Assembly (NCBI RefSeq): GCF_028471905.1
Contig: NZ_CP116902.1
Location: 718,501 to 782,500 of the forward strand
Direction: 5' to 3'
DNA: 64,000 bases
Origin: Aneurinibacillus uraniidurans
GTDB lineage: Bacteria > Bacillota > Bacilli > Aneurinibacillales > Aneurinibacillaceae
The notes beneath the pieces are model-generated. The model had not been told where the DNA came from. It saw only the letters and a list, made by a program, of their open reading frames with translations, and did no database searches. The position numbers were made by a program, and so were the translations under genes. Each line of letters begins with the position of its first letter. Positions within the stretch are counted from its first letter, which is position 1. Below are positions 21,955-51,919 of the stretch, in pieces.

Positions 21955-22586
21955 AAGTAACACAGGCTGAATTTGTAATCAGCGCTGTATCTCCAAAGCA
22001 GTACCCGCATGGCACCCTGCCAGAATTCGCCTTGGCAGGGCGTTCTAATGTCGGGAAATCATCATTTATTAACAAGATGATCAATCGCAAAAATCTGGCC
22101 CGGACATCATCGAAGCCAGGGAAGACACAGACGCTGAACTATTATTTGATTAACAAGGACTTATACTTTGTAGATTTACCAGGATACGGTTATGCTAAAG
22201 TATCCAAGACTGAGAAAGAAAAATGGGGCAAGATGATGGAGGAGTACCTCCAGACGCGGGAACCGCTGCGTGCTGTTCTGCAAATTGTTGATATTCGTCA
22301 CTCCCCAACGAAAGACGATCAGGGGATGTACGAATACTTGAAGCACTTTGGGATCCCTGTTGTGGTCATTGCGACCAAAGCGGATAAAATTCCGAAGGGC
22401 AAATGGCAGAAGCATCTAAAAGAAGTGCGTACCGTGCTTAATATGGACCCGGCTGATGAACTGATTTTGTTCTCCGCTGAAAACGGGCATGGAAAAGACG
22501 AAGCATGGAAAGCGATTCTCGCGCGGGCGAAGGCGAAGCCAAAAGATCAGCCGCAAGAGGAACAGCAGGTCGAAGGCGAAATGTAA
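21951..22586 (+). CDS. ysxC: Ribosome biogenesis GTPase YsxC (EngB)
   Basis: Small essential GTPase needed for assembly of the large ribosomal subunit. G1 is GRSNVGKSS (about residues 30-38), G3 is DLPGYGYA near 74-81, and G4 is TKADK near 142-146. 211 residues, with a charged Lys/Gln/Glu tail. It overlaps the end of lonA by 4 bases (ATGA), so it is translated in the lonA operon. A strong hairpin terminator follows, and beyond it the first copy of the structured repeat. Confidence 0.95.
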
Positions 22587-22600
22587 GATGACTCATGGCA

Positions 22601-22652
22601 AAGAGGCTATCTCAAATGCTGTAACACAGCGACTGAGATAGCCTCTTTTTTT
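22601..22652 (+). terminator. Terminator of lonA-ysxC
   Basis: AAGAGGCTATCTCA (22601-22614) pairs with TGAGATAGCCTCTT (22634-22647), then a T run. The loop holds a second small hairpin, GCTGT with ACAGC. The stem-loop is similar in plan, not sequence, to the hairpins bounding the repeat copy at 51.4-51.9 kb. Confidence 0.88.
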
Positions 22653-23285
22653 CTTGGTAGTTTTCTCCCAAAGTGTGGTGGAGGAGCCGGGATCGGGCGG
22701 GGTCTTGTCACTTCAGTATGCTTACAAAGAAGTTATGACTGTCCGCTCCAGGTGCCAGGCGAACTCGCCCACAAAAGAGGACCCATGATGTATCTGCCTC
22801 GAAGTATTGTGGGCAAAGGCCCGTTCACCTGGTCCCTTCCGCTGGGTAGTAGCATACAGGCGTTCCGTTACCCCGCCCGATCCCGCTCCTAGCATACTTT
22901 GGATAAAAATCATCAAGCACAAAAGGCTGAGTTTTCCTATGTAAGTAAAAAACAAGAAAGCTATCTTTTGAGAAGACAATGGCGATCGAGCAAATCCGCT
23001 CTGGCGTGGCATGTTTTTTGTAGATGGAAACGTTGTGCGAGGAGTGGGAGAAGGGATGAGCAAGAGAGTGCCTGTACGCGCCTACTTAGAGGAGGGAGAA
23101 CGACGAACGGGCCTTTGCCCGCAATCCATCAATGAATCAACATCGTGGGCTTTTCTTTGCGGGCGAGTTTGTCGGGCTCCCGGAGCGGACACTCCTCACT
23201 TCCCTGCAAGCGTACCGAAGCGAATGGCTCATCCCTTCTCCTACTCCCTCACCACCAAACATTGTCGATTTTACAAAAGAAACTG
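22653..23285 (+). repeat. Structured non-coding repeat element, copy A (contains a nested inverted part-copy)
   Basis: Most of the 700-base gap between ysxC and the convergent exporter gene. It matches, in the opposite orientation, the segment at 51.42-51.85 kb. Layout: GTTTTCTCCCAAAG and GGGATCGGGCGGGG (22689-22702); a partial inverted module (about 22703-22870); CCCCGCCCGATCCC (22871-22884); a conserved linker (22903-23016); and a full module (about 23017-23272) with outer arms GGAGTGGGAGAAGGGATGAG (23041-23060) and its near-perfect complement at 23228-23247. Both modules contain the 8-bp stem that covaries between copies. The short open frames here differ in frame between copies, so I do not read it as coding. 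Its right edge reaches the stop codon of the exporter gene. Confidence 0.8.
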
Positions 23286-24209
23286 TCAGGACGAGATTGT
23301 TTTTTGCTTTTTCCAGCGTGCTACCACCACATTGAATGGAAATTCTGCGAGAATCATGCCGAGAAAGATGAGCATGCAGCCAGTAAGAGCGCGTACTGTC
23401 AACAGCTCGTCGTTAAAGAAGTAAGCGGTCGCGGCTGCAAACACAGGCTCCATGGCGAAAATAAGCGCCACACGAGTCGCTGTCGTGAATTTCTGACATT
23501 CTGTTTGTGCGAGAAAGGCGAGCGCCGTTGCTGGAATAGCTGTAACAAGCAGAGCGATATATACAGTGGGCGTAGAAAATGTTTTTAAAGAAAGAGCAGC
23601 CTGCCAATTCTCAAGTATGAGCGCGCTGATGCCGCTTAGCACCGAAACGACAAAGATCTGTACACAGGCAAGCGCGAGTGATGGAAAATGTGGCGCATAG
23701 CGTCCAGTAAAAATAATCTGCAGGGCAAATGATACTGCACAAAAGAATATAAGGATATCCCCGCGATTGACCGCTACAGCATCTCCCATGGTTAGGAAAT
23801 ACAGTCCGACCGTTGCGACCAGTACCCCAAGCACTGCTGGAATACGTGGCTTCTGTTTGAGAATCAGCAATGCGAACATCGGCACGAGCACAACCGAAAG
23901 ACCGGTGATAAAACCGGCTTTTGCTGATGTAGTATATAGCAGCCCCACGGTTTGAAAGGCATAGCCGAGAAACAGCCATATGCCAAGTAAGATGCCTGCG
24001 CCGAGCAGTCGTGCATTTATTTGTGCGAGCTGGCTACGATAGAATACCAGTAGGAAGCCAAACAGAAATACAGCAGCCATAAAAAAACGAACCGCATTAA
24101 ATGTAAGCGGTGGAAGCACGGCAATGGCATTTTGCACCACGACAAACGTTGCCCCCCAAATGAATGTCACAGTGAGCAGGATGCTGTCAGCAAGTATAGA
24201 TTTTTTCAT
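23286..24209 (-). CDS. EamA-family (DMT superfamily) transporter
   Basis: Ten-helix inner-membrane exporter or metabolite transporter with two EamA repeats (about residues 8-140 and 150-290). The first repeat has FIWGATFVVVQNAI and the second EPVFAAATAYFFNDE, typical of the family. 307 residues. The ATG at 24209 follows AAGGGTGGG on the minus strand. Substrate unknown; drugs or amino acids are usual. The last residues (WKKQKTISS) are encoded where the repeat element ends, so the C-terminus may have been changed when the element arrived. Divergent from the chemoreceptor gene and convergent with ysxC. Confidence 0.88.
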   Translation of the reverse strand: MKKSILADSILLTVTFIWGATFVVVQNAIAVLPPLTFNAVRFFMAAVFLFGFLLVFYRSQLAQINARLLGAGILLGIWLFLGYAFQTVGLLYTTSAKAGFITGLSVVLVPMFALLILKQKPRIPAVLGVLVATVGLYFLTMGDAVAVNRGDILIFFCAVSFALQIIFTGRYAPHFPSLALACVQIFVVSVLSGISALILENWQAALSLKTFSTPTVYIALLVTAIPATALAFLAQTECQKFTTATRVALIFAMEPVFAAATAYFFNDELLTVRALTGCMLIFLGMILAEFPFNVVVARWKKQKTISS

Positions 24210-41584: not shown

Positions 41585-41867
41585 GCATGTAAAGTGAATA
41601 CGCAGCAGGTGTTGAAAGGGAAGAGTATATCATGATGCCATACCAGAGAGCGGACCAAAGGTGGAAGGCCGCATGGATGTAATGATAGAAGGTAGCCCTG
41701 GAGCCGTGTGCCCGAACGATTCGAGTAGGGCATACCGGGTTTTACCCGTTATCGTGATGGAAGAGAGTTCGCACGCTCGCCTATGTACAGGTGTTGTGTG
41801 AACTAACAAAGGTGGTACCGCGAGATACGCTCCTCGTCCTTTGCAGGATGAGGGGCTTTTTTATTTT
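41585..41867 (+). ncRNA. T-box leader of valS (valine)
   Basis: The T-box core AAAGGTGGTACCGCG is at 41808-41822. The terminator CCTCGTCCT with AGGATGAGG (41832-41853) plus a T run follows. Stem I can be built: AGGG (41617-41620) with CCCT (41696-41699), the AGTA motif (41624-41627), TATCAT (41628-41633) with ATGATA (41682-41687), and the distal AGAGAG and GGTGGAA. The specifier loop then reads GAAGGTAG, giving GTA (41692-41694), a valine codon. Uncharged tRNA-Val should bind and switch to antitermination. The specifier is my hand fold. Confidence 0.9.
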
Positions 41868-51374: not shown

Positions 51375-51420
51375 AAGAAGCTGTCCCAAAGCCAAGATAT
51401 GGCGAACGGGACAGCTTCTT
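51375..51420 (+). terminator. Hairpin after the BIG2 protein; left end of repeat copy B
   Basis: AAGAAGCTGTCCC (51375-51387) pairs with GGGACAGCTTCTT (51408-51420), then TTTTTG. It can terminate the upstream gene. The same 46-base sequence recurs inverted at 51852-51898. Confidence 0.75.
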
Positions 51421-51851
51421 TTTGTAGAATCGACAACGTTTGGTGGTGAGGGAGTGGGAGAAGCCGTTCGTTTTAGTACACTTGCATGGAAGTGAGGACT
51501 GTCCGCTCCGGGAGCCCGGCAAACTAGTCCGCAAAGAAAAGCCCCACGATGTTTCTTCATAGAAGAATTGCGGACAAAGGCTCGTTCGCCGTTCTCCCTT
51601 CGCTGAGTAAGCGCGTACAGGCACTCTCTTGCTCCTCCCTCCTCCCACTCCCCGCACAACGTTTCGATTTACAAAAAAAATGCCACGCCAGAGCGAACCT
51701 GCTCGATCGCCATTGGTTTCTCGAAAGGTAGCTTCCTTGTTTTTTACTTGCATAGCAAAGCTCAGCTTCTTCATCAGCATACCAAAGAGTGGTGGAGGCC
51801 CCGCCCGATCCCGGCTCCTCCACCACTCTTTGGAGAAAACCACCCTTAAGC

Positions 51852-51898
51852 AAGAAGCTGTCCCGCTCGCCATGTTTTGGCCTTTGGGACAGCTTCTT
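51852..51898 (-). terminator. Right hairpin end of repeat copy B, possible terminator of the minor-pilin operon
   Basis: AAGAAGCTGTCCC (51852-51864) pairs with GGGACAGCTTCTT (51886-51898). On the minus strand it lies 22 bases past the minor-pilin operon, but what follows (GCTTAAGG) is a poor T tract. Confidence 0.5.
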
Positions 51899-51919
51899 TG
51901 TCGTAGAGTGATGTATTTG

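Follow-up and report, generated by a model that had tools for sequence, protein, structure and literature searches.

An apparently undescribed family of large folded intergenic repeats in Bacilli

Introduction

The palindromic elements derived from IS200/IS605, as well as integron attC sites, have as their substrate a folded single strand in one orientation, and a role in transcription insulation, or as supercoil or gyrase sites, has been proposed for BIMEs. The repeat bcr1 is said, in the title of one paper, to be specific to the Bacillus cereus group. In published accounts, bcr1-bcr18 are described as dispersed intergenic repeats of the B. cereus group with a conserved secondary structure and features of mobile elements, bcr1 being a MITE-like stem-loop tabulated at 147-167 bp (PMC2267715, PMC3446304). 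REP sequences are palindromic and occur also in paired (dimer) forms, and a RAYT recognises single-stranded REP DNA (PMC3733652).

The repeat described here was analysed in a stretch of 64,000 nucleotides from Aneurinibacillus uraniidurans, the whole of which is called the window. Like the bcr repeats, its module family is dispersed, intergenic, structured and found in Bacilli, with traits of mobile elements; it is set apart from bcr1, by description, by an outward-pointing pair of ~250-bp hairpins and by a core that is present in seven families. With REP and BIME sequences it has in common palindromic units in inverted pairs (in all 11 loci where neighbours lie close by), but REP units measure 20-40 bp and carry GTAG or CGTC tags, whereas the core found here has ~150 nt and AGCGGA motifs, and the presence of a Y1 transposase does not clearly track the module. 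The idea of a folded strand is the same as in the IS200/IS605 palindromes and attC sites as generally known, from which size and motifs differ. The hairpins that flank the element (T_L and T_R) are like intrinsic terminators, as are the outer stem and T-run of the module in one genome (G007), but the core is far larger than a terminator and holds conserved unpaired motifs. As in MITEs, there are presence/absence differences between close relatives. Terminator-like ends with a shared loop were found in most of 33 full copies and are absent from some. No description of the family was found among the open-access papers searched, and it is apparently a large folded non-coding intergenic repeat family of Bacilli undescribed so far.

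Results

Architecture of the element

In a single reading direction, the complete unit runs from hairpin A (~257 bp) through spacer M (~110 bp) to hairpin B (~245 bp) and forms an intergenic element of ~620 bp. Hairpins A and B contain related modules in opposite orientation, both pointing outward. We aligned 33 full copies, 18 from the source genome (G000) and 15 from a congener (G005). Terminator hairpins flank most of them, several copies being without one or both; the flanking stems, for example left-hand GCTGTCCC or right-hand GGCTGTCTC, carry a similar loop in inverted orientation. The window contains one full copy, element 1 (22661-23277, minus strand), and element 2 (51421-51839, plus strand), in which B is reduced to a short hairpin. 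Their parts, with the evidence for each, are:

22600-22652, no strand: terminator hairpin T_R of element 1 (G005 and five further congeners have another terminator here)
22668-22902, minus: hairpin B of element 1 (B alignment)
22708-22861, minus: conserved core of the module within hairpin B of element 1 (covariance model; G000:C1:741208-741361, minus)
22903-23016, no strand: spacer M between the outward modules of element 1 (full-copy alignment)
23017-23278, minus: hairpin A of element 1 (window repeats, A alignment)
23070-23223, plus: conserved core of the module within hairpin A of element 1 (covariance model; G000:C1:741570-741723, plus)
51375-51423, no strand: terminator hairpin T_L of element 2 (sequence, window repeats, comparison with G005)
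51421-51675, plus: hairpin A of element 2 (genome search, A alignment)
51468-51622, minus: conserved core of the module within hairpin A of element 2 (covariance model; G000:C1:769968-770122, minus)
51676-51795, no strand: spacer M of element 2 (genome search)
51796-51839, plus: hairpin B remnant of element 2, ends retained and module gone (window repeats)
51852-51899, no strand: terminator hairpin T_R of element 2 (matched by the single terminator at the empty G005 site)

Several copies look like deletion derivatives, with breaks at short repeats that flank a hairpin. In the apparent derivatives L010, L022 (2662), L044 and L043, hairpin A or the interior from A to B is gone, and the breakpoints lie at short repeats. 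More divergent copies of G000 have different outer arms (L035:9324-9581, L021:2807-3047, L019:2961-3181, L014:2846-3041 and L023:8741-8911) and are perhaps a second subfamily. The terminator loop motif AAAAGCNNNAACATNGCGA occurs 30 times in G000, where by hand comparison 19 occurrences adjoin an element and 11 lie elsewhere; the terminators with the motif and without an element are either pre-existing terminators or scars.

Copy number and spread

Window repeats and genome searches with three probes (up to 40 candidates scored per probe), merged, place element sequence in at least 54 places of G000. A covariance model of the module core (R1) found 89 cores in G000 and at least 150 in G005, where each of the 150 candidates scored was a match, with copies also in G003, in G006 and in two other genera of Aneurinibacillaceae; the same model found no core in G001, G002, G004, G009 and G010. 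With a second covariance model (R2, E up to 1e-4, up to 10 candidates scored per genome), matches were obtained in 47 of 299 Bacilli genomes, which represent 21 of 118 genera and seven families and include all 11 Aneurinibacillaceae genomes. The core spans 151-154 model positions and contains the motif AGCGGA.

Forty further stretches were fetched, and a set of 54 loci (51 outside Aneurinibacillaceae) provided 68 module matches, which form alignment A4. Most of these loci have single copies. Wherever neighbours lie within 400 nt, an outward (-,+) pair is present (11/11 loci) and a facing (+,-) pair is not (0/11), L133 and L175 having a same-strand neighbour in addition to the outward pair. Facing pairs are absent in G000 and G005 as well, and the outward arrangement recurs in other families.

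At the module, no family of Rfam release 15 reached its gathering cut-off in the window or in sets of 12 and 13 loci. The sole match to overlap a module is that of MIR5998, a miRNA precursor family, which covers part of the L115 module on both strands with 38.5 and 33.2 bits, against a cut-off of 180, and bxd_2 lies below cut-off in L104, away from the module. Apart from the module, RAGATH-18 RNA (RF03064) was above the gathering score in G000 (L024:4783-4848, minus), and a SAM riboswitch and a T-box leader are present in the window at 2062-2171 and 41603-41844. Searches with blastn against plasmids (three queries) and phages (one query) gave no match. The pattern GTACGCTTN{8,16}ACTGTCCGCTCC, searched in genome contigs, returned 4 loci in unrelated groups, which is about chance by our own estimate; the search possibly leaves out kin of the source genome.

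Evidence for the fold

Hairpin alignments were built from 47 A copies and 45 B copies, after hits with less than 78% identity (6/53 and 1/46, respectively) had been dropped. RNAalifold gave weak structures on these two whole-hairpin alignments, and the helices were taken from averaged pair probabilities, not from its consensus. The initial annotation of the window had read paired changes in a repeated stem as the signature of a selected fold, in RNA or in single-stranded DNA, and had proposed a covariation test on the collected genomic copies. Such a test, run by shuffles and a home-made G-test with APC in place of R-scape, supports the fold and that interpretation. Compensated Watson-Crick cells number 48 in A (n=47; shuffle mean 12.9, maximum 22) and 54 in B (n=45; shuffle mean 19.3, maximum 29), above the shuffle maximum in both. 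The minor-letter rate is 0.055 in A and 0.060 in B for paired columns, compared with 0.131 and 0.147 for unpaired ones. By the G-test, five column pairs were significant in A, three of them helix pairs, and six in B, of which none belongs to the structure tested and one falls in a small hairpin added afterwards.

A core alignment (A1) of 50 of the 92 cores has 37 pairs, three of which, the small hairpin, were added after the G-test. Standard pairs fill 95.4% of its cells (91.3 shuffled), 15 pairs (6.1) and 102 cells (33.8) are changed on both sides, and the covariation score is 0.215 (0.135), with 0/500 shuffles reaching each value and slid partners scoring 0.036-0.058; further pair types number 39 (33.3 shuffled, 1/500). 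Among 32 copies aligned to the R1 model, both-side changes are present in 35 of the 37 pairs. In A4, an alignment fitted to the model and thus leaning towards it (68 matches, 54 loci), the corresponding values are 92.3% standard cells against 56.3 and a covariation of 0.813 against 0.192 shuffled, the slid controls giving 0.072-0.136. In A4, P2 is preceded by the conserved unpaired letters aCcnAGCGgA and followed by cGnAGCGGaCagt, likewise conserved and unpaired, where capitals stand for at least 85% and small letters for at least 60%. The mean identity of the 33 full copies is 0.836 and 0.853 within genomes and 0.839 between them, and, the copies being nearly equidistant, shuffles mislead less than they do with deep trees. 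The whole fold is well supported. An additional apical pseudoknot (TGTC with GGACAGT) seems convincing in copies of G007 and G008, but in A4 the loop and tail of one copy pair no better (3.85) than swapped partners do (3.80), and it was rejected as a general feature.

The inner stem

P4, the inner stem to which the initial annotation had drawn attention, sits in the ~150-nt structured module within the long hairpin. Its six arms, checked against the window sequence, are all found where they had been placed:

51527-51534, no strand: P4 arm GTCCGCAA, hairpin A of element 2, the stem first noticed (sequence)
51568-51575, no strand: P4 arm TTGCGGAC, hairpin A of element 2, the stem first noticed (sequence)
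23117-23124, no strand: P4 arm GCCCGCAA, hairpin A of element 1 (sequence)
23157-23164, no strand: P4 arm TTGCGGGC, hairpin A of element 1 (sequence)
22767-22774, no strand: P4 arm GCCCACAA, hairpin B of element 1 (sequence)
22807-22814, no strand: P4 arm TTGTGGGC, hairpin B of element 1 (sequence)

The stems at 51527-51575 and 23117-23164 belong to A-type hairpins on opposite strands, and that at 22767-22814 to a B-type hairpin. Over 50 cores, four of the eight P4 pairs are invariant, three are compensated in a single copy each, and one splits A from B. The change from GCCCGCAA to GCCCACAA is a nearly fixed difference between A and B (AU 25, GC 23, GU 2), and the GTCC change is a singleton. 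Being almost invariant, the 8-bp stem is weak evidence by itself; pairing is above chance for the whole fold and not for this stem alone. A third pair change that had been suggested, GGC/GCC (51518-51520/51588-51590) against GAC/GTC (23102-23104/23171-23173), involves triplets that are indeed at these positions, and the pair concerned is GC in 24, AT in 10 and GT in 1 of the 47 A copies, with no standard pair in 12. Uncompensated changes at the background rate, which would speak against the fold, were not seen in the 8-bp stem, where non-standard cells make up 7/376 in A and 0/360 in B.

Strand and neighbouring genes

Read in module orientation, GU:AC cells in the core number 73:36 (A) and 74:21 (B), and in the outer arms 64:70 (A) and 63:55 (B). 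When counted by pairs, the ratios are 21:5 (p 0.0025) for A and 15:7 (p 0.13) for B in the core, and 15:13 for A and 19:8 (p 0.05) for B in the outer arms; by this count the GU excess is clear for the A core alone, and its restriction to the core is not firm. The other alignments have 140:40 (A1), 65:15 (A2), 29:5 (A3) and 58:14 (A4, P1-P4), and C-to-T changes at unpaired positions point in this direction as well. The excess of GU over AC in the core suggests that one strand of the module is folded. Two other indicators of strand or molecule were set aside. By folding energy, the module strand is favoured in 41/50 cores of G000 and G005 and in 20/32 of A2, but in A4 its energy is lower in 25/68 and higher in 42/68; as a strand test, folding energy backs this strand in G000 and G005 only. 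A low GU share of standard pairs was dropped as a sign of DNA, given that the share of 0.036 in A4 P1-P4 is about equal to the 0.038 of three riboswitches of these genomes (FMN, SAM and purine; 82 pairs).

Gene orientations were counted with crude ORF calls, namely the longest open frames. The 43 single copies of the 54-locus set, nearly all from families other than Aneurinibacillaceae, stand to genes as ++ 15, -- 13, -+ 8 and +- 5, with two unresolved; a constant orientation to the neighbouring gene was not found in this set, and a cis-acting mRNA element is unlikely, since single copies have no direction relative to genes. In G007, among the copies listed, 10 of 11 end in a T-run, and both flanking ORFs run in the module direction in 7 of 12 rows. 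One module of this genome (L110:1466-1685), with a T-run at its end, lies between two genes, which we take to resemble veg and a small acid-soluble spore protein gene. At the element loci of G000 and G005, convergent gaps are enriched (31/72 vs 17/131) and divergent gaps are depleted (4/72 vs 31/131). The region of element 1 (22560-23340) has a single sigma-70-like site, located outside M, where 0.7 is expected by chance; outward RNAs from promoters inside M are not supported by this copy, the one that was scanned.

Presence, absence and movement

G005 lacks the element at both window sites (2/2). Its counterpart of 51421 contains one terminator in place of the two in the window, and a deletion between terminator repeats is possible there. 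At 22661, G005 has an unrelated terminator of ~40 bp, and five other congeners have different simple terminators. Given short unrelated terminators at this site in six congeners, the sequence comparison is most simply read as an insertion of element 1, with its own T_R, in the source lineage. Some element sites are common to G000 and G005, with an identity of 0.844-0.895 in four ortholog pairs. Near-identical copies are absent among the 33 full copies (top within-genome identity 0.898 and 0.909), and recent movement is therefore not seen. At the two sites compared (22661 and 51421), no target-site duplication was seen.

The Y1 transposase (PF01797; IS200/IS605, RAYT) is present in 10 of 11 Aneurinibacillaceae genomes and, as read by hand from tables, in 32/47 module-positive and 129/252 other genomes, while G204, G212 and G240 have at least 10 module matches and no Y1 match. 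Its presence does not clearly track the module, and it is not supported as an obligate partner. No mobilising gene was found, Y1 being the transposase family searched.

Discussion

The repeat family has a high copy number and lineage-specific amplification, differs in presence between congeners, and retains a conserved fold with unpaired motifs in outward pairs that recur. We consider it, with a probability of about 0.5, a dispersed repeat, formerly or still mobile, whose folded single strand is recognised by a trans-acting factor. Two outward modules joined by spacer M form the ~620-bp element, which in most cases lies between terminator hairpins and has spread into intergenic sites, mainly at the 3' ends of genes. 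During copying or movement of the element, the factor may recognise one module strand in a folded, single-stranded state, either as single-stranded DNA during replication or as an RNA intermediate, in a manner analogous to that of RAYT enzymes on REP hairpins. Recognition of this kind would explain why the fold has been kept. It is a more tentative idea, and one we hold to be somewhat less probable, that these are non-autonomous mobile elements throughout the class, whose copying needs a one-strand fold of ~150 nt with two AGCGGA recognition loops, whose outward pairs are the transposition unit and which are moved by an enzyme so far not connected with them.

The alternative that the module is transcribed and acts as a structured RNA, in trans or at 3' ends, perhaps as a giant terminator, is unlikely. 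It would agree with the predominance of GU over AC in the core, with a GU share close to that of riboswitches, and with the T-runs and module-direction neighbours of G007, but single copies of the 54-locus set lie with and against genes equally, M of element 1 has no promoter-like site, no Rfam family reaches its cut-off and the pseudoknot is unsupported class-wide. A slightly lower chance is given to mutational correction only, in which template switching copies one arm of the palindrome onto the other with no selection on the fold. Template switching has been described for RNA hairpins, where it can yield compensated pairs (PMC8794818). The little GU/AC asymmetry among outer-arm cells fits this mechanism, and so do adjacent compensated pairs in the same B copy, of which there are 8 against 3.1 shuffled (reached in 1/1000); in A, however, such pairs are near chance (1 vs 0.9), and the tip is inverted in 0/92 copies. 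Conserved unpaired motifs, a helix plan common to seven families and outward pairs are also left unexplained, and template switching, which may account for single changes, is a poor explanation of the pattern as a whole.

It seems improbable that the repeat has been domesticated as a chromosome element at convergent genes, for transcription insulation or as a supercoil or gyrase site. The enrichment in convergent and depletion in divergent gaps, the flanking terminators and the orthologous sites retained in two species would be in line with such a role, yet an equal bias of gaps is expected if insertions in promoters were weeded out, and the element is missing from G005 at both window sites. 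Moreover, the identity of orthologs (0.844-0.895) is close to the mean among paralogs (0.836 and 0.853), so that no site-specific constraint is visible. We give very little credence to a classical MITE belonging to a DDE transposon and palindromic by accident: the repeat is non-coding, multi-copy and intergenic with inverted ends, as such an element would be, but the lineages share the interior fold while the outer arms inspected differ, and a target-site duplication was not evident at the two sites compared.

A structured element that reaches at least 150 copies in one genome, occurs in 21 of 118 sampled genera and has no Rfam family that attains its cut-off represents an annotation gap, and the covariance models built here make the family directly searchable. 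Its near-equidistant copies provide rich natural data on the origin of paired changes, whether by selection or by template switching. The repeat family also points to some machinery by which it is spread.
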